Assembly: GCF_000196115.1 (NCBI RefSeq)
Contig: NC_005027.1
Coordinates: 2,604,001-2,668,000 of the forward strand
Direction: 5' to 3'
DNA from: Rhodopirellula baltica SH 1
GTDB taxonomy: Bacteria > Planctomycetota > Planctomycetia > Pirellulales > Pirellulaceae
DNA length: 64,000 nucleotides
The position numbers were made by a program, and so were the translations under genes. Shown here one piece after another: positions 3,654-17,267 of this stretch. Position 1 is the first letter of the stretch, and each line of letters opens with the position of its first letter. The notes beneath the pieces were generated by a model. The model ran no database searches and had not been told where the DNA came from. It saw only the letters and a program-made list of their open reading frames with translations.

Positions 3654-3668
3654 ACCGTTAGGTTGATC

Positions 3669-5054
3669 ATGCAAAAGCCCATTCCTCGTCGTCGCTTCCT
3701 TCGTGGCAGCGGAGTCTTGCTGGGACTGCCGTGGATGGCATCCATGGCAGAAACCATGGCCGCTGCCAAACCGGATGCATCGGGTTCGCAAAATGGCGAT
3801 CCGCAACCGCCACTTCGCACCGCGTTTTTGTATTTCCCCAATGGAGTCTGGGAGAAAGATTGGGTGCCCCAGTCCGAAGGAACCGACTACGAATTGTCAC
3901 CCTCGCTCGAACCGCTGGCGGACTTGAAGGATGACTTTCTCGTACTCTCAGGACTCGACAAAAAACACTCGCACGGTGGCGACGGTCACTACGCCAAAAC
4001 AGCCAACTACTTAACGGGCATGCCGGTCGCAAAAACCACTGGCAAAGACATCAGCAGTGGCGGCATCTCGATTGACCAATTGATCGCGGCAAAGGTCGGC
4101 AACCAGACACCGTTGCCGTCGCTGGAGTTGGGCATCGATCCGGTGATCAGCGGAATCGACAGCAACGTTGGCTACACGCGTTTGTACGGATCACATATCT
4201 CATGGCAATCGCCAACCCGCCCGATTGCAAAAGCGATTAATCCTCGCGTGGTCTACGAACGTCTGTTTGGTAAGCGGATGAAGACCAGCACACCAGAAGC
4301 AAGGTCTTATCAGAACTTGCTGGACTACGTGCTGGAAGACGCTCGTTTGGTTCGCGGCAAACTCAGCCGCGACGATCAGTTCAAGATGGACGAGTATTTG
4401 GATTCGGTCCGTGAAGTGGAGAAGCGGATTGAGTTTGCCACCCGTGACCAAAGCCACCGAGAACGATTCGAAGCAGAACGTGATCGCATTGCGAGCGGTC
4501 ACGCACTGGAAATTCCCGAGACCGGAACTCCGGGCGACTTTCGACAGCACATTGACTTGATGCTGGACATGATGGTGCTCGCTTTCCAAACCGATTCGAC
4601 TCGAGTCGCGACGTTCATGTTCGCCAACGATGTGTCGGGGCGTTCATTCAGCTTCCTCGACGGAGTTCATGGCGGGCACCATGAGCTATCGCACCACGAG
4701 AACAAAGAAGAAAAGATCGCTCAATATCAACTCATCAACCGTTGGCACACCGAACAATTCGCTCGGATGCTGCGGAAGATGAAAGCGGTCAAGGAAGGCG
4801 AGTCAACGCTGCTCGACAACAGCATGATCATGTTCGGCAGCAGCTTCTCCGACGGCAACCGTCACGACCCTGACAACCTGCCGTTGCTGCTGGCCGGTCG
4901 CGGCGGCGGCACGATCCAGCCCGGTCGTCACATCGCTGCCCAAGACCAAGTCCCGGTCTGCAACTTGTATTTGTCGATGGCCAAACGCTACGGATTGGAC
5001 CTCGAACGATTCGGCGACAGCGAGGCAGAACTGACCGAATTGGCAGGAACCTGA
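3669..5054 (+). CDS. DUF1552 family Tat-exported protein
   Basis: 461 residues. The N-terminus MQKPIPRRRFLRGSGVLLG carries a twin-arginine signal (RRRFLRG), so export in a folded state is likely. The body matches DUF1552 planctomycete proteins: TAFLYFPNGVW, LSGLDKKHSHGGDGHY, and DNSMIMFGSSFSDGNRHDPDNLP near the C-terminus, a pattern related to DUF1501 and sulfatase-like folds. It follows the DUF1592 gene by 15 bases and is almost certainly co-transcribed with it. The ATG at 3669 is chosen; a TTG six bases upstream is possible. No catalytic function is established for the family. The repeat array begins 12 bases after the stop codon. Confidence 0.88.
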   Translation: MQKPIPRRRFLRGSGVLLGLPWMASMAETMAAAKPDASGSQNGDPQPPLRTAFLYFPNGVWEKDWVPQSEGTDYELSPSLEPLADLKDDFLVLSGLDKKHSHGGDGHYAKTANYLTGMPVAKTTGKDISSGGISIDQLIAAKVGNQTPLPSLELGIDPVISGIDSNVGYTRLYGSHISWQSPTRPIAKAINPRVVYERLFGKRMKTSTPEARSYQNLLDYVLEDARLVRGKLSRDDQFKMDEYLDSVREVEKRIEFATRDQSHRERFEAERDRIASGHALEIPETGTPGDFRQHIDLMLDMMVLAFQTDSTRVATFMFANDVSGRSFSFLDGVHGGHHELSHHENKEEKIAQYQLINRWHTEQFARMLRKMKAVKEGESTLLDNSMIMFGSSFSDGNRHDPDNLPLLLAGRGGGTIQPGRHIAAQDQVPVCNLYLSMAKRYGLDLERFGDSEAELTELAGT

Positions 5055-5066
5055 TTCGGCACCACT

Positions 5067-5141
5067 CACCGTAGCCGGATTCGCCAAGAATTCGGACGCG
5101 TCCCAACTGAAACATCTGAATTCTGCCGACTCCAACCACGG
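5067..5141. repeat. Palindromic repeat A, copy 1
   Basis: About 75 bases. Left arm GGATTCGCCAAGAATTC (5077-5093) pairs with right arm GAATTCTGCCGACTCC (5118-5133); the loop holds the palindrome GGACGCGTCC. It starts the A-B-A-B-A array that lies between two convergent genes. Confidence 0.85.
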
Positions 5142-5154
5142 ACTAACTAGCCAC

Positions 5155-5275
5155 GTAGGCCAGGTCTCACCTGGCAACCAAGCCGATGCTTTGGAACAAA
5201 GCGAGGCGTTTTAGCATTCATCCGCGAGTTCGCGAGGCTCCGTCCATTCACCTCGCCAGGTGGAACCTGGCCTAC
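5155..5275. repeat. Palindromic repeat B, copy 1
   Basis: 121 bases bounded by the inverted ends GTAGGCCAGGT and ACCTGGCCTAC. Inside are three mini-hairpins: CCAGGT-CTC-ACCTGG at the left, GCTTTG-GAA-CAAAGC in the middle and CCAGGT-GGA-ACCTGG at the right. Confidence 0.9.
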
Positions 5276-5301
5276 GTCGATGTCCACTGAAAGCCGTCAC
5301 G

Positions 5302-5375
5302 CACCGTAGCCGGATTCGCCAAGAATTCGGTCGCGTTCCAACTAAAACATCTGAATTCTGCCGAATCCAACCACG
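5302..5375. repeat. Palindromic repeat A, copy 2
   Basis: Close match to copy 1, with arms GGATTCGCCAAGAATTC and GAATTCTGCCGAATCC. It is separated from the B copy before it by a short conserved linker (GTCCACTGAAAGCCGTCACG). Confidence 0.85.
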
Positions 5376-5389
5376 AACTAACTAGCCGC

Positions 5390-5509
5390 GTAGGCCAGGT
5401 TGTACCTGGCATCCAGCCGATGCTTTGGAACAAAGCGAGGCGGTTTGATCAGCGTACTCGATTTCGCGGTGCACCGGCCAATCACCTCGCCAGGTGGAAC
5501 CTGGCCTAC
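5390..5509. repeat. Palindromic repeat B, copy 2
   Basis: 120 bases with the same outer inverted ends and three mini-hairpins. The left triloop is TGT rather than CTC, while the six-base arms are unchanged. Confidence 0.9.
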
Positions 5510-5535
5510 GTCGACGTCCGCAGAAAGCCGCCACG

Positions 5536-5608
5536 CACCGTCGTTGAATTCGCCAAGAATTCGGACGCGTCCCAACTGAAACGTCTGAATTCTGGCGAGT
5601 CCAGCGAC
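5536..5608. repeat. Palindromic repeat A, copy 3
   Basis: Third A unit, with left arm GAATTCGCCAAGAATTC and right arm GAATTCTGGCGAGTCC. It ends 19 bases before the stop codon of the convergent pseudopilin gene. Confidence 0.8.
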
Positions 5609-5626
5609 ACGTCGAATGCTCTCGAT

Positions 5627-6535
5627 TCAAAGGGCCCCGTCTTTGGGATCGATCAGACTGCGGAACAACTCGCCATCGACGCTGGACGTAAGAAACCCCG
5701 TCGATCCATCCAACCGCGAAAACAGGGCGCCGCCTGGATGAGCCGATCCCCAGTTGTCCATGTAACGCGCGCCGGGGCCATCTCGTTCGATCAACAAACC
5801 ACTTCGCACGGTTCCGTTGCTACCGCCACTGAAGATCGGTTCGTCGTAATACCAACTCGTTTCCGTTTGAATGATCGGGTCGAATGCTTTCTCCCCCGTC
5901 CCTAACGTGTTGCTCAGTCCGTCCGCAATCGCACTGAGCCGCTGGGCGTCAGGGAAGTTCAACATCACTCGGCGGTTGCCAGCGTAGTCCGTCTTGGCCC
6001 ACGCCCGACCGCCCCCAGAATATCTGCCGTACGAATCATCTCGTGGGACCAAGGGATCTGCCCGCGAGCGACTGGGGCAACGGAACAGCGGCCCAGCGGA
6101 TTCGACCTGAACATTCTGGTACGCTTCCCCTTGTTCCAGCGATGGCAGAATCGCATAGGCCCAGCACCCCGTTTGTTGTGTCGGCGAGGCTCCCGGTTGG
6201 CCGACTCCCCACCAGAATTGATGGTCAACCGCAAAGGTATAGGTGCCAACCCGAATCGGTTTGCCCGATGCAGAGGTGACGGTGCACTTGCCATCATCAC
6301 CGCCATTGCTGGGAAGGTACTCATGCTTGGCAGCGTGCATTTGAATGCCGAGCGCAAGTTGCCGCTGTTGATTCATGCACTGAGTCCGCCGGGCTGACTC
6401 GCGTGCATTCTGAACCGCTCCGGTGAACAACGACACCAGCAAGCCTATAATCGCCAATACGATCAGCAGTTCGATCAAGGTAAAGCCGCGGCGAACGTTC
6501 GTGATGCGTCCCGGTTCGAAATGAGATTGGTTCAT
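5627..6535 (-). CDS. DUF1559 pseudopilin-like protein
   Basis: 302 residues. The N-terminus carries a type IV pilin/type II pseudopilin methylation motif, RRG|FTLIELLIVLAIIGLL, with cleavage expected after G17 and the conserved glutamate at mature position 5. The ending of the hydrophobic helix (GAVQNARESARRTQCMNQQ) and the later motif DGLSNTLGTGEKAF are typical of the greatly expanded planctomycete DUF1559 family, as is the WYYDEP segment. It should be processed by a prepilin peptidase and anchored at the inner membrane. It stands alone, flanked by repeat array A/B on one side and a single B repeat upstream. Its role is unknown; surface fibre or secretion functions are inferred. Confidence 0.88.
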   Translation of the reverse strand: MNQSHFEPGRITNVRRGFTLIELLIVLAIIGLLVSLFTGAVQNARESARRTQCMNQQRQLALGIQMHAAKHEYLPSNGGDDGKCTVTSASGKPIRVGTYTFAVDHQFWWGVGQPGASPTQQTGCWAYAILPSLEQGEAYQNVQVESAGPLFRCPSRSRADPLVPRDDSYGRYSGGGRAWAKTDYAGNRRVMLNFPDAQRLSAIADGLSNTLGTGEKAFDPIIQTETSWYYDEPIFSGGSNGTVRSGLLIERDGPGARYMDNWGSAHPGGALFSRLDGSTGFLTSSVDGELFRSLIDPKDGAL

Positions 6536-6571
6536 GGCGAGTCCTCAATGATAGTTCAGGGTCGAAGCAAC

Positions 6572-6692
6572 GTAGGCCAGGTTTCACCTGGCAACCAAGC
6601 CGATGCTTTGGAACAAAGCGAGGCGGTTTGGCCCGCTTTCTCGAGTCCGCATGGATTCGGCCAGCAACCTTGCCAGGTGGAACCTGGCCTAC
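6572..6692. repeat. Palindromic repeat B, copy 3 (isolated)
   Basis: 121 bases, left triloop TTC, same arms and inverted ends as the other B copies. It has no adjacent A unit. It lies between the start of the pseudopilin gene and the end of the next minus-strand gene. Confidence 0.88.
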
Positions 6693-6787
6693 AACGTCTG
6701 ATGCTTGAAACCAACGACACCATGCTGTCCAGAAATTAGGCGTGGTGAGGAATGAAATATTGCGTGCGCATGGCTTAATTCCCCCTT

Positions 6788-7978
6788 CTAATTGGATCGT
6801 GGCCAGAATCGGTAGGCGACCAACCCGAGGATCAGGACGACCAACCCGGCATTGAAATAGAAAAACTTGGGTGACTCCGGCGACGGTGCATCCGCTCGAG
6901 CATTGGCCAAACCGTGCTGCTGAATCTTGGCAAGTTGCGCATCCGAATAGGGAACATGAAAGCGTTTCCCATCTTTGATACGCGCCCACTCAGTACCAGC
7001 CGGCCAGGGCGGAATCCACTCAAAGCTGTCAACGTCGATCTCACTAATGTCGAGCATTTCGATCGAGCAGATGTAACCCGATTTTCCATCGGGAGTGACA
7101 GCCCGGTACGTTGCCTTCTTGGGGTATCGAAAACCATCGAACGTCATCAACTCTGAGATGTCGACCTGAAGTGGACCATCGGGATAGCTTTCCCGTCGCT
7201 CAACGAGCAGGAGTTCCGGTTGCGAAGTGAACACGACGTAGGATTGATCCCCTGGGTCGGTTGCTGACATTCGAATTGCTTTTGTATCGGCCTCGTGTTC
7301 GAACCATTCGGTTTGAAGCTTGTCGCCCATTGGAACGAACTCAACGTCATTCGTTCGTTCAGTTCCATTGATCAAAGCAACATCGTTAACAAGAAGGCTG
7401 ACGAGTGGGTCTTGATGAAAAGCAGGTAAGAGATGGCCAACGGAAGCATTGCCAAAAGAAGTCACTGCTTTCCTGCCTTCAAAGTCGAATAGCAACTTCC
7501 GAAGAAAACTGTGGCTGGCCCGTCCGTCGGTGCCCTCAAAATAGGTCAGCAACGGATCGTCATCGATGTGAGGTTCGCCCTGGTTCTTCTGATAGTGCAT
7601 CAGACGAACCGGAATGTTCGAGCGATCTGGACTTGGCTTGCCAATGGCAAGCGTCCGCACGCCATTGGCAGCGATGTCCAAGTGCCCCGAGAAAAATGTC
7701 GCGCCACCGTGATCGGTGCGGCTCTCGGTTTCGATCGTGTACCGAAACTCTTTGCCGTAGAAATAGGTGCGAGGCTCCCCCTTCACGCGACGCAGTTCGT
7801 CAGCACTCAATATCCGGTCTTCCGCGCTAGACGACTGAGCTAGCGAACTAGCCGGTGAAAGGCCAAGAAACGCGAGTAGCACCAGGCTTGCTAGGAGGAC
7901 TCTGACGCACGAGCGAACCATTCGACGATCCCATCTTGTCGAATCGTCTTTGTTCGGCATATGAAACGCCCCCACCAT
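6788..7978 (-). CDS. Membrane-anchored exported protein, unknown function
   Basis: About 396 residues from an ATG at 7978 preceded by GGAG at a good distance; further in-frame starts lie at 8038 and 7960. An N-terminal signal or anchor (SCVRVLLASLVLLAFLGLSPASSLA) precedes a globular region of about 330 residues, and a C-terminal helix (FFYFNAGLVVLILGLVAYRFW) ends in a short basic tail, so the protein is probably a periplasmic domain tethered to the inner membrane. No known domain was recognised. The segment around QPELLLVERRESYPDGPLQVD is rich in beta-type sequence. Repeats flank both ends of the gene. Start uncertain. Confidence 0.65.
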   Translation of the reverse strand: MVGAFHMPNKDDSTRWDRRMVRSCVRVLLASLVLLAFLGLSPASSLAQSSSAEDRILSADELRRVKGEPRTYFYGKEFRYTIETESRTDHGGATFFSGHLDIAANGVRTLAIGKPSPDRSNIPVRLMHYQKNQGEPHIDDDPLLTYFEGTDGRASHSFLRKLLFDFEGRKAVTSFGNASVGHLLPAFHQDPLVSLLVNDVALINGTERTNDVEFVPMGDKLQTEWFEHEADTKAIRMSATDPGDQSYVVFTSQPELLLVERRESYPDGPLQVDISELMTFDGFRYPKKATYRAVTPDGKSGYICSIEMLDISEIDVDSFEWIPPWPAGTEWARIKDGKRFHVPYSDAQLAKIQQHGLANARADAPSPESPKFFYFNAGLVVLILGLVAYRFWPRSN

Positions 7979-8271
7979 TTCAAACTCCGCTGCTTCCTCA
8001 GTGGCATCCGAACGCGAACATCTTGCAGCGGACATCAAGGCTCCCTACAGGGCTCTGAACGGCGATGGAACAACCACACCATCCTAAAGAGGGGATCGCT
8101 CAAAATTCAACCCCCTGACTCCAGGACTTCATCCAGGGCTGTTATCTGGCAAACTCCGAAAAACTAGCTATGCCGCGTACCGTCCTCCACCACACCCACA
8201 TCCGGTGAAATTCCAAACAAAGGCTCTGAAGGAGCCCTCGTTGATGGCTCGGACTGGAAGCCTCGAGTCTC

Positions 8272-8390
8272 GTAGGCCAGGTTGTACCTGGCATCCCGCC
8301 AATGCTTTGGAACAAAGCGAGGCGGTTCGCCAGCGTTCTCGAGTTCGCGGAGATCCGGCCAGCCACCCCGCCAGGTGGAACCTGGCCTAC
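8272..8390. repeat. Palindromic repeat B, copy 4
   Basis: 119 bases, left triloop TGT, with both inverted ends intact. It is followed at 27 bases by an A unit, preserving the alternating B-A order. The interval 7979-8271 before it (about 290 bases) shows no gene beyond possible alternative starts of the preceding protein. Confidence 0.9.
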
Positions 8391-8416
8391 GTCGATGTCC
8401 ACTGAAAGCCGTCACG

Positions 8417-8489
8417 CACCGTAGCCGGATTCGCCAAGAATTCGGTCGCGTTCCAACCGAAACATCTGAATTCTGGTAAGTCCAGCGAC
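8417..8489. repeat. Palindromic repeat A, copy 4
   Basis: Left arm GGATTCGCCAAGAATTC is intact; the right arm GAATTCTGGTAAGTCC is degraded. It ends 22 bases before the stop codon of the FecR-type gene. Confidence 0.8.
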
Positions 8490-8511
8490 ACGCACTGGAC
8501 ACCAAGCGACT

Positions 8512-9933
8512 TCAGTCCGTGGTCGTTTGCTTGACGTGCAATCGCAGGGTTGGTGGGCTGGCGGTTGGGTGGGTTCGGCTGGCGAATCCATGCACGTAGC
8601 TTTGGGTCTGATTCACGGAAGTCAGCCGGGTGATCACCAGCGTCGGCGTGGATCCCAAGTTGTCTTGCACAAACTGCAGCAACCGTGGGTCGGCGATCAC
8701 AAATTGTCCTTGCGGTTTTGATTGTGGAATCAAGAACTCGCCAAGTAACTCGACTTTGTCCGGATTAAGTTGATGAGTCTCTGGCTTCCTGGCGGGAAAG
8801 TTGTTTCGATCGAGCGTTTTGGAATTCCAATCCGTGTTGTATTCCGGCTTCACACCGTGAACGCGAAAGGTGGAATCAGGCAACAAGGACGTGTACCCCA
8901 TCCCTGTGTGGACACCTTCCAGCCGAAGCTCCACGCTCGACAGCTCCGATATGTCAAAGCCCGTGAGATCAAATCGAATGAACGCCTTTCGGTTCCAATG
9001 AGGTTCGCTGTCAGCACGTTTGACCAGCAGCACATGATCCGGCGTGGGGAACACGTCTCCCTCTCGCCGATCCCCAGAGGTGACATCACCTTCGTCGCCA
9101 TCGCCATAGGCGGAGCTGATGTGAATGACTTTGTCGGAAGAGGCAGGCATTACGCCGTTCTGCTCGCCCCCACTTTTCTGCTTCGGGGCAAACGTTTCCA
9201 ACGCATGAACGGAAGCGAACGCTCGACTGGTTCCTTCCAAAGTCATTTGCCGTCCCGTTCCCAAATGTTTGACATCGACCTTGCCTTCCATCACATCCAA
9301 ACGAGCGTCACCGACGTTGTCGACAAAGACACCAAATTTGGTTCCACGATCGGTGATCTCCGCCCGAGGTGTTTCGACCACAAATCCTTCACCGCCTTCG
9401 CTGACCGACCCAACAATGCTGCCCGAATGCAGGCGACAACGTTCCGCTGAGATCAGTTCGATATCGACTGGTCCTTCCATCGAAACAGTCGCACGAGGAA
9501 ACTGCAATTCCGCGATCCCTGAAATCAAACGCAAGCGTCCCGTGGTGAGTTCTTGACCAACGGTTGTTGGCAAAGTCCCGGTGCCCCAATGGCAATCGGT
9601 TGACGAAATAATCGTCGCAACCGATCGCGGCTGCATCGTCATCCATTCCCAGCCCGCCGCCGCAACAAACAAGAGACTGGCGGCAATCAAAGGCAGGTAG
9701 CGGTTCAGCCGAGACAAACCAGTGGCTGATTCGGCGGGGCAAACAGGGGGCAACGTTTGCTCCGGAATGCCATTCCAAATCAACGCTGCATCTTGGTTCG
9801 CATGTTCGATATAGTCATCGAGCAACTCATCCGAGGCATGCAGCAGACTTTGCAGTTCCTCCGTTTCCGCTTGAGTCGCCACACCGCCCAAAAAGGCGTT
9901 TCGCAACTGATCAAATCGTTCACGCTGGGTCAT
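8512..9933 (-). CDS. FecR-domain protein with DNRLRE/CBM96-like tail
   Basis: 473 residues from the ATG at 9933, which has AAGGA ten bases upstream and overlaps the sigma factor gene by 14 bases. Order: a short cytosolic region resembling anti-sigma N-termini (residues 1-75), one transmembrane helix (YLPLIAASLLFVAAAGWEW), a FecR domain (QELTTGRLRLISGIAELQF, RCRLHSGSIVGSV, VETPRAEITDRGTKFGVFVD, LDVMEGKVDV), and a C-terminal module with RKAFIRFDLTGFD and VELRLEGVH, the pattern of DNRLRE/CBM96-type domains. Known family logic is that FecR proteins relay a surface or periplasmic signal to a cognate ECF sigma factor, which is encoded directly upstream. The C-terminal module could sense or bind carbohydrate; that is inferred. 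A GTG at 9990 would add 19 residues. Confidence 0.85.
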   Translation of the reverse strand: MTQRERFDQLRNAFLGGVATQAETEELQSLLHASDELLDDYIEHANQDAALIWNGIPEQTLPPVCPAESATGLSRLNRYLPLIAASLLFVAAAGWEWMTMQPRSVATIISSTDCHWGTGTLPTTVGQELTTGRLRLISGIAELQFPRATVSMEGPVDIELISAERCRLHSGSIVGSVSEGGEGFVVETPRAEITDRGTKFGVFVDNVGDARLDVMEGKVDVKHLGTGRQMTLEGTSRAFASVHALETFAPKQKSGGEQNGVMPASSDKVIHISSAYGDGDEGDVTSGDRREGDVFPTPDHVLLVKRADSEPHWNRKAFIRFDLTGFDISELSSVELRLEGVHTGMGYTSLLPDSTFRVHGVKPEYNTDWNSKTLDRNNFPARKPETHQLNPDKVELLGEFLIPQSKPQGQFVIADPRLLQFVQDNLGSTPTLVITRLTSVNQTQSYVHGFASRTHPTASPPTLRLHVKQTTTD

Positions 9934-10513
9934 TGGAGCGAGTTCCTTCGAGAGAAAGAGTGCGGTCAACACATGCGTGAAGTGCCTCACGTATACGGCT
10001 TAACATTTTGTAAACGGCATCCACGCTGGAGCCCATCTCCTCTGCGATATTTTCCACTGGCACACCCTGCCGGTAACGTTGTTCCACAAACAATCGTTTG
10101 CGTTCAGGCAGCTTCTGAACACAACCTTCCAACGCATCCAACCGACGCTGCAAATAGGCCGATCGTTTCTCCTGCCGCTCGGAAATCAACATTACGGTTT
10201 CGGTATCGAAGTGGGGTCGTTTGGCCCGTCGCTTCGACGTGAAAGCTCGGACCTGATTGAGCGCCACCGTGCACGCCCACGCCCGGAAATTAGTTCCTGG
10301 TTCGAATCGTTCGTACTCTCGCCAAAGCACGAGGTTGGTTTCCTGCAGCACTTCATCCGCGTCCATTCGATTGGGGATGAGCGAATGGATGTAGTAAAAC
10401 AGCGAGCGTTGAGACTCGGTCAGTAGCTGAATGAATTCGGTCGTTGCCTGGTCGTTGTTACTCATCTGTTGTTGCGTTGATTTCTTCAGGGCGTCGTATG
10501 CCTGGAAGTTCAT
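9920..10513 (-). CDS. ECF RNA polymerase sigma factor (planctomycete type)
   Basis: 197 residues. Region 2 is visible as RSLFYYIHSLIPNRMDADEVLQETNLVLW with the -10 recognition stretch NFRAWACTVALNQVRAF; region 4 as KLPERKRLFVEQRYRQGVPVENIAEEMGSSVDAVYKMLSRIREAL, a helix-turn-helix that reads the -35 box. The pattern fits the sigma-70 subfamily common in Rhodopirellula. The ATG at 10513 overlaps the stop of the preceding membrane protein gene (ATGA) and the 3' end overlaps the FecR gene, so all are coupled in one transcript. It likely recognises its own promoter upstream of 13379; no motif could be verified. Confidence 0.92.
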   Translation of the reverse strand: MNFQAYDALKKSTQQQMSNNDQATTEFIQLLTESQRSLFYYIHSLIPNRMDADEVLQETNLVLWREYERFEPGTNFRAWACTVALNQVRAFTSKRRAKRPHFDTETVMLISERQEKRSAYLQRRLDALEGCVQKLPERKRLFVEQRYRQGVPVENIAEEMGSSVDAVYKMLSRIREALHACVDRTLSLEGTRSNDPA

Positions 10514-11529
10514 TCCTTTGTTGGGGCTGCCTTTGAGTGTGGCAGATCCAGCTTCGCTAAAAACAAATCTGCAATCTTTCGAGCGGTGGTGATATTTTCC
10601 AAGTCATAGCGAATGTTGCCGTCACCCTCGGAGCCCCCACCGTGCCCCGTCAATTCCAAAATCGCATGAGGACTCTCACGATCGACGTCAATCAGCGCCG
10701 TGTACAGCAACGATGGTTGCCCCCACTCGGTTTCTTGCCACTCATCGTTTGAATCACCCGGCAGATTGAATTCCACACAAACGACAAACCGATTGCCTTT
10801 CCCCGGTTGGAGATACTGATCCAATTCGAAGCGGTGATTCTTAGTGGCCCCTGTCATTCCATCGACTTCTCCATCGGGATCGACCCCGGAGACCATGGTG
10901 TAGGCGTGTCGCCAAATCGGAAGCACATCGCTGCGGCGAAGCACTGCCCCATCGCCGGAAGACGTGGTGCGTGGAACAACTTCGCTGTAAGCAAGCCCTT
11001 CGTCCAGGTACAACGTCTCAATCATGGTCCCGGTTGTGGATTCCACCCAAACCGCCGTGGCAGGCAGGCGATCAAGCGACATCGAATAACCAAGATGAAT
11101 CGAAAGCCTCGCGTCCGATTCTCGCTTGGGTTTTCTCACAACAATCCGCTGATGCGGCGACAACTCGCCAAAGCCCACCAGTGAGGACACTCGTACAATC
11201 TGGTTTCGCTGGCGAGTCTCATAGCTTTGATTCATCAACCAATTGGTAGGCGGGACCGCGGCAAGCGAGGCCACCAGCACCACCGCCCAGAACCCAAGCA
11301 CGCTTGCTTTGCGAGCCAATCCCATCGCCTTTGACTTCCTTGATGCAATGGATCGAAAGTAGCTGAGTCGGCTCAACACATGCTTTGCCACCAAGGCGAC
11401 ACACACGACCCCGGAGACCACATGCAATCGCGTGTTCGTCTGAGAAAACGGCAGCGTGAACACCAGCACCCCGGTGACCATCAGGGTGCTGAACGAAAAC
11501 AGCAAGGCAAGATTGACCCAGTGTCTCAT
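10510..11529 (-). CDS. Membrane protein with DUF4405-like N-terminus and DUF2271-like C-terminus
   Basis: 339 residues. Three hydrophobic helices (WVNLALLFSFSTLMVTGVLV, LHVVSGVVCVALVAKHVL, SVLGFWAVVLVASLAAV) with histidines at helix ends resemble the small cytochrome-b-like DUF4405 fold, although haem ligation cannot be proved from sequence. The periplasmic part of about 230 residues includes VDGMTGATKNHRFELDQYL and, later, QPSLLYTALIDVDRESPHAILELTGHG, resembling DUF2271-type segments seen near FMN-dependent systems. It sits between the FAD oxidoreductase (TGATG junction at 11527-11531) and the sigma factor (ATGA), so it may deliver or accept electrons for the oxidoreductase. That role is an inference. 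Confidence 0.65.
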   Translation of the reverse strand: MRHWVNLALLFSFSTLMVTGVLVFTLPFSQTNTRLHVVSGVVCVALVAKHVLSRLSYFRSIASRKSKAMGLARKASVLGFWAVVLVASLAAVPPTNWLMNQSYETRQRNQIVRVSSLVGFGELSPHQRIVVRKPKRESDARLSIHLGYSMSLDRLPATAVWVESTTGTMIETLYLDEGLAYSEVVPRTTSSGDGAVLRRSDVLPIWRHAYTMVSGVDPDGEVDGMTGATKNHRFELDQYLQPGKGNRFVVCVEFNLPGDSNDEWQETEWGQPSLLYTALIDVDRESPHAILELTGHGGGSEGDGNIRYDLENITTARKIADLFLAKLDLPHSKAAPTKE

Positions 11530-13379
11530 CAGGACGAGCGATCCTCAAAACCGATCAGACTGCGAAGTTCGCGAACATGCTTCTGCCCGACTTCTCGAGG
11601 CGTTGCTTGATAAGCCTTGCACAGCGACGCGGCGTACCCGGTTGCAACTCCCATTTGACCACACGTGTTCATGACGCGCGGTCCGGCCAATCCAATGTGG
11701 GAACAACTGAAACAGCGTCCGGCCATCATCAGATTATCGATGTCCTTTGAATACAGACTTCGGAACGGAACGAAGTATTCTCCACCGGTTTTGTAGAACA
11801 ACGCCTTGGACAAGAAGTCGACCGGATTGCCCTGCAAGACTTGCTGGTAATGCGAATCGATCTCGCGCGTTTCCACCACCACCGCATCCTCGAACTCGCG
11901 TCGTTCAGCGGCATCTTTCATCGTGTAGATGTGATCGCCCGTCAGACGGCGAGATTCGCGTTTGCCACCAACGAACGAAACCCATTTCAACGTCCAGGGT
12001 GCGTTCTTGGGATGCCGTTTCGCATTGGCAAACGAACCGTAGATCGCACGCAACATGTGGTCACGAATGGTTTCCGCATCGTCGATTTGATCCAGATCAT
12101 TGTCAGAGTATTCCCAGTACCATTCCCCCGCGGTCGCTTCGTGATCCTTCGCCACCGGCATCGCCCAAGGCACGTCGGGGAAAGTGCTGCGCTGGCTCGT
12201 TTTCTCGGCATTCCAAAGCACTGACGTTCCCATCACACGTTTATCGGGAACCTCAGGACTCCAAAGATCGCCGTGCTTGTCCCAAGCTTCACCAAATTCC
12301 GTGTGCGATTCGCGGCCGATTCGGTATTCAGCTCCGGCCCAATACCCCAGCCAACCATCGCCAGTCGCATCGACAAAGACAGGAGCATAGAAGCGTTTCA
12401 AACGACCGGAGGACGCTTCCCTGGCTTCCACGCTTTCGATGCGTCCATCGCTCTTGGACAATCCACATGCGATGTGTCCCGCGAAAAGCTCGACGCCCGA
12501 TGCGGCCATGGCGGCTTCACGTTTCTTTTGGTCCTTGCGAGCCAGCGCGCTGCCGTTGGGATAGTGTTCCGTATCGATCTTTTTCAAGATCCCAGCGGCA
12601 CGGCCGTGGATTCCCAACGTGTGAACACGAATTTCTTCAGAGGCGTTGCCGCCAAAAATGGGCCGGTCCTGGATCAATGCCACTTTCAGTCCTTGCGAAC
12701 GTGCCGCCAGCGCCGCACCACAACCTGAAATCCCGCCGCCGACGATGACCAAGTCGAACTCGAGTTCATTGACTTGCAATTCGGCACGACCGGTGACTTG
12801 ATCTTTCCAAGCCACTACTTCCGCGGCGTCGTTCGGCAGCGTTGGCGAGGACGACTTGGAGAAATAGACCGCGTCACAGCGACCATCAAAACCGGTGAGG
12901 TCGGCCAACTCAATCTTCACCTTGGCCGGGTCATCGATCTCGATGGCACCACCTTTTTGCCAATGCCATTTTGTGTCTTCCGTCCCAAATTCCGGTGTCA
13001 GAGTTTTGTCGTTGACTGTCACATGAAAGCGACCGGGAGATTTCCACTCGCCCTGGCACCAATCACGCGTCCTCACCCAAACGTGCCAAGTTCCTGCATC
13101 AGGCAGAGCGACGTGAGTGGTCGCGTTGGCAACCGGCTCTCCCATGCCATGGGCCAACAGATAACAGCCGCCCATTTGCTGGTAGTGCTGGGTATCCAAT
13201 GTCCAGCCACCCAAATCCTCGAACTGGCTGGCCTCGACCAAGACGCCTTCCGCCGCTGAACTCGCCTCCGAAGACAAACGTTCACTTCCCATGATGTATC
13301 CGGGAGCCGTGGCGGAAAGCACTCCTGCTCCTCCCATAACTCGCAAGAAGCCACGTCGTCCAATTTGGTTGTTTTTCAT
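11529..13379 (-). CDS. Tat-exported FAD-dependent oxidoreductase
   Basis: 616 residues. The twin-arginine signal is GRRGFLRVMGGAGVLSAT. Residues about 40-200 form a beta-rich module (VLVEASQFEDLGGW, GTWHVWVRTRDW) that looks like a carbohydrate-binding or golvesin-like domain. An FAD_oxidored core follows: FDLVIVGGGISGCGAALAA (dinucleotide-binding GxGxxG), FGGNASEEIRVHTLGIHG, DATGDGWLGYWAGA and, near the end, NLMMAGRCFSCSHIGLAGPR with GQMGVATGYAA. This family includes planctomycete enzymes annotated as xanthan lyase-like or FAD-dependent oxidoreductases; the substrate is unknown. It is the first gene of the minus-strand operon 13379 to 8512, whose later genes are a membrane protein, the ECF sigma factor and the FecR protein. 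Confidence 0.87.
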   Translation of the reverse strand: MKNNQIGRRGFLRVMGGAGVLSATAPGYIMGSERLSSEASSAAEGVLVEASQFEDLGGWTLDTQHYQQMGGCYLLAHGMGEPVANATTHVALPDAGTWHVWVRTRDWCQGEWKSPGRFHVTVNDKTLTPEFGTEDTKWHWQKGGAIEIDDPAKVKIELADLTGFDGRCDAVYFSKSSSPTLPNDAAEVVAWKDQVTGRAELQVNELEFDLVIVGGGISGCGAALAARSQGLKVALIQDRPIFGGNASEEIRVHTLGIHGRAAGILKKIDTEHYPNGSALARKDQKKREAAMAASGVELFAGHIACGLSKSDGRIESVEAREASSGRLKRFYAPVFVDATGDGWLGYWAGAEYRIGRESHTEFGEAWDKHGDLWSPEVPDKRVMGTSVLWNAEKTSQRSTFPDVPWAMPVAKDHEATAGEWYWEYSDNDLDQIDDAETIRDHMLRAIYGSFANAKRHPKNAPWTLKWVSFVGGKRESRRLTGDHIYTMKDAAERREFEDAVVVETREIDSHYQQVLQGNPVDFLSKALFYKTGGEYFVPFRSLYSKDIDNLMMAGRCFSCSHIGLAGPRVMNTCGQMGVATGYAASLCKAYQATPREVGQKHVRELRSLIGFEDRSS

Positions 13380-13631
13380 CGTTTCTCTGGTGTCGCAAGA
13401 TGGAAATCAATGGATTGAATCGGCGATCCTGTTCGTCGGATTCATGCACTCAGAGAGTCCACCCCAGGTAATTTTGGACAACTAATCCAACTTAATTTGC
13501 ATTTTGCGGAAAAATCCTGTCCAAAAATCAACCCAACCCCCTCTCTTTGATCAGACACGAAATCCTTCGTCTTTTCTGGCGTTGTGCATGGAGCAGCGCC
13601 ACACTTTTCGTTCATTCAAAGGAAGCACATT

Positions 13632-14774
13632 GTGAGAACAGGCAGAAAACGCAAAGCGTTCACGCTCGTTGAACTGTTGGTCGTCATTGCAATCATCGGA
13701 GTTCTCGTTGGACTACTATTGCCGGCGGTTCAAGCAGCGCGAGAAGCAGCTCGACGGATGTCATGCAGCAATAATTTCAAGCAGATCGGCTTGTCGCTGC
13801 ACAACTACCACGCGGCTTACAACCGGTTGCCACCCAACGGAACCGGCCCTTCGTTGCCCGCTCTGAAGCAGCTCAGTGCGAACATTGGACTGTTGCCGTT
13901 TTTGGAGCAGCAGGGTCTATGGGAAATGATGTCCAACCCATTGATGCCCGAACCCGGCGAAACACCAACGGATGCCACTGCCGCTGGTTTGTGGCCGCCA
14001 TTCGGGCCGCGTCCATGGGTCGACTTGAATGAGTACGATCCTTACCAAATGCAAACCCCCGCATTCCGTTGCCCTTCCGATCCAGGCGTGTCGCCCTTGG
14101 GAACAGGCATGACCAATTATGCATTTTCTCATGGCGATGCGATCTTGCGAATCGGGTATCCACCCTCGAACCAGTGGGCCGACCAAGGTGTCTTCCGCGG
14201 TCTGTTCAAACGAGATGAACCGCGTAAATTCCGAGACGTCCTCGATGGATTGTCGAACACAATTGCGATGGCTGAGATTGTGACCAACCTCGGCGACCGC
14301 GGCGTCGGTGGTTCCGTCGTCAACCTTTCGCACTTCCCCGCCGATGACTCGATGGGATCCGATTTGACTCTCTGCACTTCCGTCATTGACCCCGAGCGTC
14401 CCCAATTCATCGAGAGCAGTGTGCCACTGTGGGACAGTGGGGGAACGTCACGAGGCGGTCGCTGGTGGAACTATCACTTGATGATCACGGGCATGAACAC
14501 TGTCCTGCCACCCAACTCACCCACCTGCCCCATGGGTTGGGGCACTGCCTGGCAATCAGGCGTATTCAGCTCAGCAAGTCACCATCAAGGTGGGGTTCAT
14601 GTTCTGTTGACGGATGGAGCCGTGAAGTTCGTCACCGATTCGATCGAAGCGGGCAATCAACAAGCCCAAAGCATTTCAAAGAACTACGGTAATGTCGGAC
14701 AAAAGAGTCCCTACGGATTGTGGGGAGCTCACGGGTCCATTTCTTCCAAGGAAACGATTGAAGGTTTCGAATGA
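13632..14774 (+). CDS. DUF1559 pseudopilin-like protein
   Basis: 380 residues from a GTG at 13632, chosen because AAAGGAAG lies six bases upstream; a GTG at 13584 has no ribosome binding site. The N-terminus is MRTGRKRKA|FTLVELLVVIAIIGV, so the residue before the cleavage site is alanine where glycine is usual. Then come GLLLPAVQAAREAARRMSC, CSNNFKQIGLSLHNYH, LDGLSNTIAMAEIV and a C-terminal H-X9-DGAV region (SASHHQGGVHVLLTDGAVKF), the classic DUF1559 (SBP_bac_10) signature. Prepilin peptidase processing is expected. Its stop codon overlaps the start of a small lipoprotein gene. Confidence 0.9.
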   Translation: MRTGRKRKAFTLVELLVVIAIIGVLVGLLLPAVQAAREAARRMSCSNNFKQIGLSLHNYHAAYNRLPPNGTGPSLPALKQLSANIGLLPFLEQQGLWEMMSNPLMPEPGETPTDATAAGLWPPFGPRPWVDLNEYDPYQMQTPAFRCPSDPGVSPLGTGMTNYAFSHGDAILRIGYPPSNQWADQGVFRGLFKRDEPRKFRDVLDGLSNTIAMAEIVTNLGDRGVGGSVVNLSHFPADDSMGSDLTLCTSVIDPERPQFIESSVPLWDSGGTSRGGRWWNYHLMITGMNTVLPPNSPTCPMGWGTAWQSGVFSSASHHQGGVHVLLTDGAVKFVTDSIEAGNQQAQSISKNYGNVGQKSPYGLWGAHGSISSKETIEGFE

Positions 14775-14950
14775 TGAAGTTGACACGAATGATCGCAACG
14801 CTGTGTTTCGCGGTGGGCCTATCGGGCTTGCCGGCCTGCTCGCAGGGCGGCGGTGACGCGGAAAAATTGGCCGCTCCCGAGGGCATCGACTGGGAAGCCA
14901 TCGAAGCCCAAGACGGCTCGATCGCTGACGCACAAAGCGAAGGCGAGTAG
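14771..14950 (+). CDS. Small putative lipoprotein (59 aa)
   Basis: Starts at an ATG (14771) overlapping the DUF1559 stop codon (ATGA). The 59-residue product has a basic N-terminus, a hydrophobic stretch (MIATLCFAVGLSGLPAC) ending in a plausible lipobox LPAC, and an acidic, alanine-rich mature part (EGIDWEAIEAQDGSIADAQ). Short lipoproteins directly behind DUF1559 genes are common in planctomycetes. It should be co-translated with the pseudopilin. Function unknown; reality of the gene is supported by the coupling, the signal peptide and the terminator-like hairpin just after it. Confidence 0.7.
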   Translation: MMKLTRMIATLCFAVGLSGLPACSQGGGDAEKLAAPEGIDWEAIEAQDGSIADAQSEGE

Positions 14951-14970
14951 AAACGCCTGTTTCGAATCAA

Positions 14971-15004
14971 CGTTCCTCTCGGTGCATTTTCAACGAGAGG
15001 AACG
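14971..15004 (+). terminator. Hairpin after DUF1559/lipoprotein operon
   Basis: Perfect 11-base inverted repeat CGTTCCTCTCG / CGAGAGGAACG with a 12-base loop, 21 bases after the lipoprotein stop. No T tract follows, so it may end transcription weakly or protect the mRNA 3' end. Confidence 0.55.
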
Positions 15005-15065
15005 CTGGTTTGAATTGGAAGGCGATCTTGCCGGATCCGCGTTTCGTTTGGTCCAGCCGCCATTG

Positions 15066-15140
15066 CACCGTCACCGGATTCGCCAAGAATTTGGACGCGT
15101 CCCAACCGAAACACCTGAATTCTGCCGAAGCCAGCTACGG
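15066..15140. repeat. Palindromic repeat A, copy 5
   Basis: Begins the second A-B-A-B array, again between convergent genes. Left arm GGATTCGCCAAGAATTT, right arm GAATTCTGCCGAAGCC. Confidence 0.8.
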
Positions 15141-15153
15141 ACTGGCTAGCCAC

Positions 15154-15274
15154 GTAGGCCAGGTCTTACCTGGCAACCAAGCCGATTCTTTGGAACAAAG
15201 CGAGGCGGTTTAGCATTCATCCGCAAGTTCGCGAGGCTCCGTCCGATCACCCCGCCAGGTGGAACCTGGCCTAC
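15154..15274. repeat. Palindromic repeat B, copy 5
   Basis: 121 bases, left triloop CTT, with intact arms and outer inverted ends. It strongly resembles copy 1 including its AT-rich centre (GTTTAGCATTCATCCGC). Confidence 0.9.
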
Positions 15275-15300
15275 GCCGATGTCCACTGAAAGCCGTCACG

Positions 15301-15375
15301 CACGGTAGCCGGATTCGCCAAAAATTCGGACGCGTCCCACCTAAAACATCTGAATTCTGCCGAATTCAACCACGA
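15301..15375. repeat. Palindromic repeat A, copy 6
   Basis: Arms GGATTCGCCAAAAATTC and GAATTCTGCCGAATTC. It follows the B copy by the same linker as in the first array. Confidence 0.8.
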
Positions 15376-15388
15376 ACTAACTAGTCTC

Positions 15389-15508
15389 GTAGGCCAGGTT
15401 GTACCTGGCATCCAGCCGATGCTTTGGCACAAAGCGAGGCGATTAGTCATTCATCCGCGAGTTCGTGAGGCCCCGGCCATTCGCCCAGCCAGGTGGAACC
15501 TGGCCTAC
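15389..15508. repeat. Palindromic repeat B, copy 6
   Basis: 120 bases, left triloop TGT. The middle hairpin has one change (GCTTTG-GCA-CAAAGC), again in the loop. A degenerate A-like piece follows at about 15526-15583, up to the stop of the endonuclease III gene. Confidence 0.88.
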
Positions 15509-15600
15509 ATCGACAGAAAGCCGCCACGCAACAGGCCCAGAGATTCCAACCGGAGCTCTGATATTCTGGCGAATCCAGCCACGCGGACGAGTAAGAAAGA

Positions 15601-16254
15601 TCAGGGTTTGATCCAGGTCACTGGTTTGCGGCGGTTGGGATAGAGCTCGCGGCAGAGTTCACACACGCGTCCGTCGCAGCCTCGCGCGGTGCAGAACTCT
15701 CGACCGTAGAAAATGATTTGCAGATGCAGCTTGTTCCAAGACGACTCGGGGAACAAGCTTTTCAGATCTCGTTCAGTTTGCACAACGCTTTTGCCGCTGG
15801 ACAATCCCCAACGCTGGGCCAGTCGATGAATGTGCGTGTCAACCGGAAACGCTGGGAAGCCGAACGCTTGCGACATCACAACGCTGGCTGTTTTATGCCC
15901 GACACCGGGCAATGCTTCCAGCTCTTCGAATGTGCTTGGTACCTGGCCTTTGTGCAGATCGATCAGCATCCCCGATAGCTTCGCGAGCGCCTTGGCTTTC
16001 TGCTTTGAAAGTCCGAGCGGGCGGATGATTTCGAGGATTCCCTCTTCGCCAAGCTCACGCATCTTTGAGGGCGTTCCGGCAACCGAAAACAACTCCGGCG
16101 TGATCTCATTAACCTTTTTGTCGGTGCATTGCGCACTCAACAAAACAGCGACCAACAACGTGAACTCGTCGGTGTGGTCCAGCGGAATCGGCGGGTCGGG
16201 ATAGAGCGTGTTCAGACGCTCGAGGACAATGGCGGCGCGTTCTTTCTTCAACAT
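15601..16254 (-). CDS. nth: Endonuclease III (DNA glycosylase/AP lyase)
   Basis: 217 residues from the ATG at 16254 (a GTG at 16260 is possible). It removes oxidised pyrimidines and cleaves at abasic sites in base excision repair. The helix-hairpin-helix is LPGVGHKTA with catalytic lysine K121, and the catalytic aspartate is D139 in FPVDTHIHR; VLLSAQCTDKKVN is the conserved early motif. Four cysteines lie near the C-terminus (C188, C193, C198, C201), spaced C-x4-C-x4-C-x2-C, instead of the C-x6-C-x2-C-x5-C usual for the 4Fe-4S cluster. Length is normal for the family. It is followed by the second repeat array. Confidence 0.92.
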   Translation of the reverse strand: MLKKERAAIVLERLNTLYPDPPIPLDHTDEFTLLVAVLLSAQCTDKKVNEITPELFSVAGTPSKMRELGEEGILEIIRPLGLSKQKAKALAKLSGMLIDLHKGQVPSTFEELEALPGVGHKTASVVMSQAFGFPAFPVDTHIHRLAQRWGLSSGKSVVQTERDLKSLFPESSWNKLHLQIIFYGREFCTARGCDGRVCELCRELYPNRRKPVTWIKP

Positions 16255-16292
16255 CGCCACACTATACCGAATCGTCTGGGGTTACCCAGTGA

Positions 16293-17267
16293 TCAGATTT
16301 GGTAATTCACCTCGGGACGCAACTCATCGGCGGGCTCATCCGAGCCACGTACCTTCAGTTGCGGTTTCTCCAGTACCACCGTGGTGCCGGGCGAGACACT
16401 GCGAGTGATCCAAACGCTCGAACCAATCACCGATTCGCGACCGATCACTGTGCGACCACCCAAGATCGTCGCGTTGGCGTAAACCACCACTTCGTCTTCG
16501 ATCGTCGGATGACGTTTCTGGCCGCGAATCAACTGGCCATCGGCGTCGGTTGGGAAGCTCAATGCGCCAAGCGTCACACCTTGATACAGTTTGACGTGCT
16601 TTCCAATGTGGCACGTCTCACCGATCACCACACCGGTTCCGTGATCGATGAAGAAGTACTCACCGATCGTCGCACCAGGGTGAATGTCGATGCCAGTTTC
16701 TTTGTGCGCCCATTCCGTCATCATTCGAGGAATGAAAGGCACGTTGAGCTGCACCAGTTCATGAGCGATTCGGTAGACCGTGATCGCTTCGAAACCGGGG
16801 TAGCAAAAGACGACTTCATCGGTCGTCTGGCAAGCCGGGTCGCCATCGTGAGCGGCTTGAACATCGGTCGCCAACATGTGCCGCAATTTCACGACGCGTT
16901 TGAGCAACTCGATCGCCATGGCTTGGCCTTTGGCTTCGAAGTCGATGTCCGTTTCACAATCCTTGTGATTCTGCAGCACGCGGTGCTCGTGCCGTAAAGC
17001 ACGAGCGATCTGAGTCGTCAGCTGATCGTGCAAGGAATCAATCAACCCGCCGACGTGGTAGCGGATGTTGCCGGCATGCAAATTGGTATGCCGCTTGTAA
17101 CCCGGGTAAAGGATGTCCTTGAGATCCAAAAGGATGTCAACGACGGCGGTGTAGCTAGGCAATGGGCAGTGCCCCAAATGATTGATTGAATCATCGGAGG
17201 TGTATGTGCTGACGATTTGCTCGGTCAGCTCTGGTAACTGCTCTTTCAGCCGAAAATCGGTTGCCAC
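16293..17267 (-). CDS. cysE: Serine O-acetyltransferase
   Basis: 324 residues, GTG start. It transfers acetyl from acetyl-CoA to serine, the first step of cysteine synthesis. The C-terminal left-handed beta-helix carries [44 protein letters not shown] with the active-site histidine in the HPG and DHGTG motifs, and hexapeptide repeats through [20 protein letters not shown]. The N-terminal helical region is longer than in E. coli CysE, as in SatA/EpsC-type enzymes of planctomycetes and plants. It is transcribed toward nth with a 38-base gap, so the two may share a transcript. Confidence 0.93.

Follow-up and report, generated by a model that had tools for sequence, protein, structure and literature searches.

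Why does one stretch of a planctomycete chromosome carry six copies of the same palindromic element, each built of hairpins whose arms hardly change and whose loops do? The stretch, called the window below, comprises 64,000 nt of Rhodopirellula baltica SH 1, and its six copies define a repeat family that we designate B. The R. baltica genome, one contig of 7,145,576 bases, is referred to as G000, and other genomes likewise by number. The six copies are very probably head-to-head dimers, in the layout of bacterial interspersed mosaic elements (BIMEs) or REPINs, of a GTAG-tagged family of repetitive extragenic palindromes (REPs) in Rhodopirellula, spread by a cognate RAYT that seems to have been lost from this genome. 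RAYTs, the REP-associated tyrosine transposases, are enzymes of the HUH tyrosine transposase kind. A REP/BIME-type system had been proposed for the copies in a first-pass annotation of the window, and that reading is supported by copy number, by covariation of the stems, by a bias toward gene ends and by a RAYT flanked with B units in sister genomes.

Anatomy of the six copies

The annotation had read six copies of 119-121 nt with the starts and left loops listed here, and with the middle loop GAA in five copies and GCA in one; all of this was recovered.

5155..5275, + strand: B dimer 1, consisting of the REP GTAGGCCAGGT-CTC-ACCTGGC, the middle hairpin GCTTTG-GAA-CAAAGC and an inverted REP
5390..5509, + strand: B dimer 2, left loop TGT
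6572..6692, + strand: B dimer 3, left loop TTC
8272..8390, + strand: B dimer 4, left loop TGT
15154..15274, + strand: B dimer 5, left loop CTT, middle left arm mutated to TCTTTG
15389..15508, + strand: B dimer 6, left loop TGT, middle loop GCA

The presence of GCTTTG, attributed to every copy, holds for five of the six, the TCTTTG arm at 15154 breaking one pair of the middle hairpin. The common outer inverted ends are real: the 12 exact matches to GTAGGCCAGGT in the window are the two ends of the six copies, and at up to two mismatches the window holds 23 matches against a shuffled mean of 6.6 (none of 100 shuffles reaches 23).

Each copy consists of two inverted 21-nt REPs, or B units, around the third, middle hairpin, and the pair of inverted units makes a B dimer. 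Read from the outside in, a unit is a GTAG tag followed by GCCAGGT, NNN and ACCTGGC, which gives a 7-bp stem with a 3-nt loop, and the tag lies 5' of the palindrome in all 12 units. Because both ends read tag and then stem from the outside in, the element is a head-to-head dimer; two inverted REPs with a linker, often in tandem arrays such as those visible in G000, make up the BIME/REPIN layout. In 60 G000 dimers the distance from the outer end of one REP to the start of the middle hairpin is 31-33 nt, which gives the element a direction.

Copies in the genome and the genus

Further copies, sought in the rest of the genome and in other Rhodopirellula genomes, proved abundant. In G000 the 21-nt B unit has 168 matches at up to two mismatches, against 5 for a reversed-pattern control, and both exact ends lie 75-105 nt apart at 19 places (control, 0). 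Some of the 168 matches are offset complements of one hairpin: in 32 stretches of the genome 151 matches reduce to 146 distinct units, the remaining 17 matches lying outside these stretches. The 32 stretches, which were chosen from about 100 of the 168 match places and comprise 31 selected for B units plus the window, form our detailed set. Across the genus, exact B units occur in six of 13 genomes, with 89 in G000, 43 in G002, 55 in G003, 5 in G004, 98 in G006 and 66 in G012, and none in the controls of that search.

Dimers were collected from the 32 stretches in two ways. A search through the middle hairpin gave 75 hits, from which 15 were left out because one side had no recognisable REP, so that 60 dimers were kept. 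A search through REPs alone also gave 60 dimers, a different set, and from these it is clear that the middle hairpin is not universal among B dimers: at up to three mismatches it is present in 50 (exact in 38, with one mismatch in 10) and absent from 10, which lie in seven stretches.

Conserved stems and a constrained loop

The B-unit scan returned 270 raw hits, of which 115 were dropped as offset complements of a better unit. The 155 that were left include two four-mismatch hits that resemble chance matches, and later counts use the other 153; loop and mismatch counts cover 3-nt loops, units with 4-nt loops standing outside them. Among the 155 units, 89 are exact and 43 carry two mismatches, and 41 of these 43 keep all seven standard pairs. 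Double arm changes are thus nearly all compensatory, the outcome for which arm covariation had been proposed as a check. In the 14 units with a single mismatch, a pair is broken in 12 and the change falls in the tag in two. A set of 42 distinct units, picked by hand to take in variants, broken units and relatives, shows changes on both sides in four of the seven pairs (36 of 500 shuffles reach four); such changes fill 24 cells (0 of 500 shuffles have as many), and the covariation score, 0.286, is reached by 0 of 500 shuffles, whose mean is 0.104, slid controls scoring far lower.

Which structure is being kept? Both local hairpins are intact in 49 of 60 dimers and the long-range arms of the whole element in 22 of 60. 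Pairing of outer arm with outer arm was considered as the selected structure and rejected, 27 of the 60 dimers combining perfect hairpins with imperfect long-range pairing. A DNA fold of two units reaches -7.4 kcal/mol, which none of 200 shuffles equals.

The claim that arms are fixed while loops vary is upheld by mean pairwise differences in a reduced set of 31 dimers, which are 0.018-0.130 for the REP arms and 0.433 and 0.371 for the two REP loops. The tag differs by 0.016 and the variable spacer by 0.627; the middle-hairpin arms differ by 0.053, a value inflated in conservation in that these dimers were picked through that very hairpin. Nor is the loop free: on the GTAG strand it is YNY (Y being T or C), position 1 being T or C in 153 of 153 units and position 3 in 151 of 153. 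Outside the genus, in G215, a GCCAGGT stem with the loops GAA and GCA lies beside a RAYT. The base that precedes GTAG is C in 49 of 60 dimers and T in 11.

A RAYT between B repeats in sister genomes

A RAYT gene, for which a search had also been proposed, was found with B units on both flanks in three sister genomes, G002, G003 and G006; in the R. baltica genome itself no cognate RAYT was found. The G002 reading frame (L052:1671-2231, 186 aa) has a dimer on either side, the two being alike at all but 2 of 123 nt, and those of G003 and G006 lie between B arrays. All three match the profile NF047646 (REP_Tyr_transpos) at 182, 172 and 170 bits in G002, G003 and G006 respectively, well over the cut-off of 80. 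The only solved relative found was TnpArep (PDB 4er8), which the G002 protein matches with an E value of 5.9e-43 over residues 1-179, in a comparison that included no group 3 sequence.

The RAYTs of G003 and G006 occupy one site, between dnaB and a membrane-protein gene. The G004 RAYT adjoins that membrane-protein gene too, dnaB lying about 2.6 kb off; its reading frame is split over two frames, and its REPs have the stems GTCAGGT/ACCTGAC or GTCAGGC/GCCTGAC. The REPs at the G005 RAYT have GGCCGGT/ACCGGCC. The differing REPs of G004 and G005 indicate that REP stems change from one RAYT to another. At the G008 RAYT the REPs are long.

Does the association reach beyond the genus? Relatives of the G002 RAYT (E <= 1e-25) occur in 58 of 241 genomes of the family, and at 27 of 27 RAYT loci (L178 to L204) some repeat is common to both flanks. 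The motif GTAGG is present in both flanks of 30 of 31 RAYT loci (one of 32 was dropped for a flank too short), against 12.9 expected from mononucleotide shuffles; at 21 other Y1 loci it is present in both flanks of three, against 9.4 expected. The latter are 21 of the 28 loci L024-L051; of those removed, four were truncated by contig ends, two were weaker and one overlapped another.

The apparently missing RAYT of R. baltica

In G000 the NF047646 profile has nine matches, none over the cut-off (the best reaches 69 bits), and the best match of the G002 RAYT to this genome has only 22 bits at 25% identity. At the dnaB site tblastn finds no RAYT in G000, where a 430-aa response-regulator/HD gene stands between B arrays; G012 has one B unit at this site and G002 none. 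At a second site, beside a ThuA-type gene, G002 has dimer, RAYT and dimer, G003 has one dimer in sequence 94% identical to G002 over 641 nt, and G000 has one unit; G006 and G012 have none, as is the case in five other genomes in which the gene was seen, and in G004 the gene is accompanied by four units with a different stem (GTCCGGT).

From these searches B appears to be a REP family that has been orphaned of its RAYT in the R. baltica genome. G012 may be a second case, as it has 66 exact B units and no relative of the G002 RAYT at E <= 1e-25. Its status is less clear, since it has an NF047646 match just over the cut-off (84 bits, L063), at which the scan found no GTAG hairpin.

Placement at gene ends

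The copies had been described as lying near gene ends, and a test for positional bias had been suggested; placement is indeed biased to gene 3' ends. With genes called by our own codon-usage script, 44 B clusters fall into 26 between convergent genes, 12 between co-directional genes, 3 between divergent genes, 2 overlapping a predicted gene and 1 at the edge of a stretch, so that the many copies are mostly extragenic (41 of 44 clusters). The 103 other gaps of at least 60 nt are 8 convergent, 66 co-directional and 29 divergent, and the convergent excess (26 of 41 intergenic clusters against 8 of 103 gaps) has a Fisher p of 1.3e-11. The four clusters of the window lie two between convergent and two between co-directional genes. 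Convergent and co-directional gaps are likewise preferred by other REPs (PMC3733652, cited here and below from excerpts, as are the other papers).

Weighing the explanations

The convergent setting would also be expected of host RNA elements, bidirectional terminators or 3'-end stabilisers, whose structure is kept in transcripts and whose nearness to a RAYT is incidental, and covariation of the stems suits RNA as well as DNA. The intrinsic terminator, a hairpin followed by a T run, is not what the copies look like: TTTT occurs within 10 nt of either outer end in none of 60 dimers, none of the 14 terminator-like sites in window 5000-15600 falls on a copy, and at gathering score Rfam matches nothing in window 4900-15700. 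A role in mRNA stability that needs no T run is compatible with the data, but host RNA elements leave unexplained the GTAG tag, the strand-specific YNY loop and a RAYT between near-identical dimers, and we regard this explanation as very improbable. Inverted ends, small size and many copies would equally describe a miniature inverted-repeat transposable element (MITE) of a classical DDE transposon, with terminal inverted repeats and a target-site duplication. Yet 3-nt flush direct repeats border only 2 of 60 dimers, about the shuffled expectation of 1.34, so that no target-site duplication is seen beyond expectation in this set; HUH enzymes are not expected to leave a flush one. The ends are moreover self-complementary hairpins and the associated transposase is of the HUH/Y1 kind, and we give the MITE hardly any credence.

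A different question is whether the B REPs of G000 are orphaned at all, or are still moved in trans by another RAYT-like protein of that genome. The nine sub-threshold NF047646 matches would supply candidates, and several RAYT-like genes of G000 have flanking repeats of their own. Those repeats, however, differ from B, and at 11 distinct Y1/RAYT-like places (18 overlapping stretches; three of the weakest NF047646 matches, two near 27 bits and one unlisted, were left out) a single B-like unit was found at up to three mismatches, about 1 kb from the gene at L088. With no B units close by, these genes are disfavoured as partners of B, and REPs and TnpA-REPs are reported to have co-evolved (PMC8266576); movement in trans therefore seems unlikely, if less so than the host-RNA and MITE readings.

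How might a RAYT have spread the dimers? TnpA-REP proteins bind and cleave folded single-stranded REPs in a strand-specific manner, with tag, stem and a loop base all mattering (PMC8266576). By analogy, the strand-specific 21-nt unit of GTAG, 7-bp stem and YNY loop would fold when single-stranded, and the cognate RAYT would recognise and cut the folded unit. What is copied would be the dimer with its spacer, usually including the third hairpin, and insertion would be into gene ends, mostly convergent ones. To move dimers the RAYT would have cleaved and transferred single strands, an activity measured for other TnpA-REPs, and the dimers would later have multiplied as tandem arrays. In R. baltica the RAYT may then have been lost, perhaps through recombination between its flanking repeats, and the copies there would now be immobile unless moved in trans.

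Several points weigh against this reading of B as a RAYT-spread and locally orphaned REP family. The copies are related by descent and by tandem duplication, so that counts of covarying cells overstate the number of independent events, and of the 31 dimers in the reduced set, 22 keep intact hairpins and 12 intact long-range pairing. Not all flank-shared repeats of the 27 RAYT loci look like REPs; a strict test, a perfect GTAG hairpin within 600 nt, is passed by only 10 of 32 RAYT loci, and the overlapping tag CGTA ties with GTAG by locus count in that test. The movement of dimers by a RAYT is one that we infer, partly from analogy, no transposition having been observed. Nor did any locus prove to be an exact empty site: in G006 and G012 the ThuA site is unalignable beyond the gene end. 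Finally, the apparent absence of a cognate RAYT from G000 is read from profile and BLAST searches, and other RAYT-like genes of that genome could act in trans.

A second REP family, block changes and neighbouring elements

A second GTAG REP family, A, distinct from B, is interleaved with it in the window, partly within two long direct copies.

5071..5095, + strand: A-family REP unit, GTAG-CCGGATTC-GCCAA-GAATTCGG, 8-bp stem with one G.T
5306..5330, + strand: A-family REP unit
5540..5564, + strand: A-family REP unit with a degenerate tag (4 mismatches)
8421..8445, + strand: A-family REP unit
15070..15094, + strand: A-family REP unit, 3 mismatches
15305..15329, + strand: A-family REP unit, 1 mismatch
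5067..5366, + strand: 300-nt stretch with A and B units, 92% identical to 15066-15365
15066..15365, + strand: second copy of the 300-nt stretch, a direct repeat about 10 kb from the first

The repeats lie at the ends of gene blocks in which Rhodopirellula species differ. The syntenic locus of G003 (R. europaea 6C) lacks window 5058-8270 and has one B dimer instead, at the junction of B dimer 4 and directly after sequence matching window 5057. In G012 only A-type fragments align between matches to window 3001-5161 and 15547-16500. Both missing stretches, 5058-8270 in G003 and 5161-15547 in G012, are bounded by A/B repeats, the comparison being confined to these loci. On a smaller scale, window 5281-5608, which holds B dimer 2, has nothing corresponding to it in the syntenic G002 locus, between the pieces that align. 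The repeats may have caused these block changes.

Family A also occurs elsewhere in G000, where its units lie on both sides of a RAYT-like open reading frame (L088:1495-1998, no Pfam match at 0.001) beside an IS3-type element (rve reading frame L088:536-1411). Two other RAYT-like genes of this genome were seen with repeats. At L022 (G000:C1:5208871-5212083) the gene has three nearly identical copies of the REP GTAGCTGACCGAGGCCTCTCGGTCAG to one side and a variant copy to the other, and at L091 (G000:C1:4348013-4351165) a 66-nt flanking repeat starts with GTAGCGGAAGTCGCC and ends with CTAC, its two sides being 94% identical. Window 13659-13846, in the 5' part of a DUF1559 (N_methyl/SBP_bac_10) gene, has many matches in 13 of 13 genomes at about 76-82% identity and presumably represents a conserved N-terminal region of a large family of paralogues. 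Among viral contigs, no match was found for a gene neighbouring the copies.

Comparison with known systems

The GTAG REP superfamily of Di Nocera et al. 2013 (PMC3733652) resembles B in its GTAG tag, head-to-head dimers, tandem clusters and adjacency to RAYTs, and in its location between convergent or co-directional genes. Its stems, mostly of 6-9 bp, its loops, of 2-3 nt in many families, and its dimers, mostly 20-100 bp apart, agree with B as well. The system had been called one not commonly described in planctomycetes. This must be qualified: in the same paper R. baltica already appears as a genome that has several REP families and many tyrosine transposase genes, and the GCCAGGT family may well be among those that it lists. 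No further planctomycete REP study was recognised among the matches listed in literature searches, and neither the middle hairpin nor the lack of a cognate RAYT in R. baltica came up in the excerpts of PMC3733652. For Planctomycetes, PMC6006769 mentions Y1 proteins of a different class 3. Planctomycetes would thus gain a REP family whose probable cognate RAYT occurs in sister species and seems to have been lost naturally from R. baltica, and comparable genomes with and without the RAYT would make testable both the lifetime of REPs without their transposase and the change of hairpin by a RAYT.

To what kind of RAYT do the B units belong? The match to TnpArep may place the RAYT near the group 2 TnpA-REPs, which include the E. 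coli REPtron. Group 2 is reported with long bulged REPs, as in subclass 2.2, whereas the B unit is a short REP whose stem is perfect, as group 3 REPs are reported to be (PMC8266576); the lineage would mix a group 2 protein with a group 3 REP format, no group 3 protein being part of the comparison. In a tree of 31 RAYT relatives obtained through tblastn, members with short perfect REPs fall into two groups (2 label changes, where shuffled labels give a mean of 7.3 and never so few in 500 trials); good support is limited to 8 of 28 inner branches, and the REP labels are our own. Short here means that a locus passed the strict GTAG-hairpin scan, except that L201 passed and was labelled long for its longer flank repeats; L062, whose gene is split, was left out. 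The group of Rhodopirellula and G215 (94/98) sits among RAYTs with long irregular REPs, and the direction from long to short would follow from the midpoint rooting.

It is tempting, although we hold the combination to be rather doubtful, to suppose both that a REP population has outlived its RAYT, in G000 and perhaps in G012, and that an E. coli-like RAYT switched from long irregular REPs to short perfect ones with YNY loops. If so, the surviving REPs, or the three-hairpin dimer with its conserved middle hairpin, would serve the host or move in trans, and the switch of substrate would reveal how RAYT-REP specificity changes.

In the Pseudomonas REPIN/RAYT system (Bertels and Rainey 2011, PMC3116915), as would be the case for B, an inverted REP doublet is what replicates, with a RAYT nearby and a spacer less conserved than the REPs. 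B differs in that its copies persist in R. baltica although searches there gave no cognate RAYT, and in that its spacer carries a conserved hairpin in 50 of the 60 REP-defined dimers.

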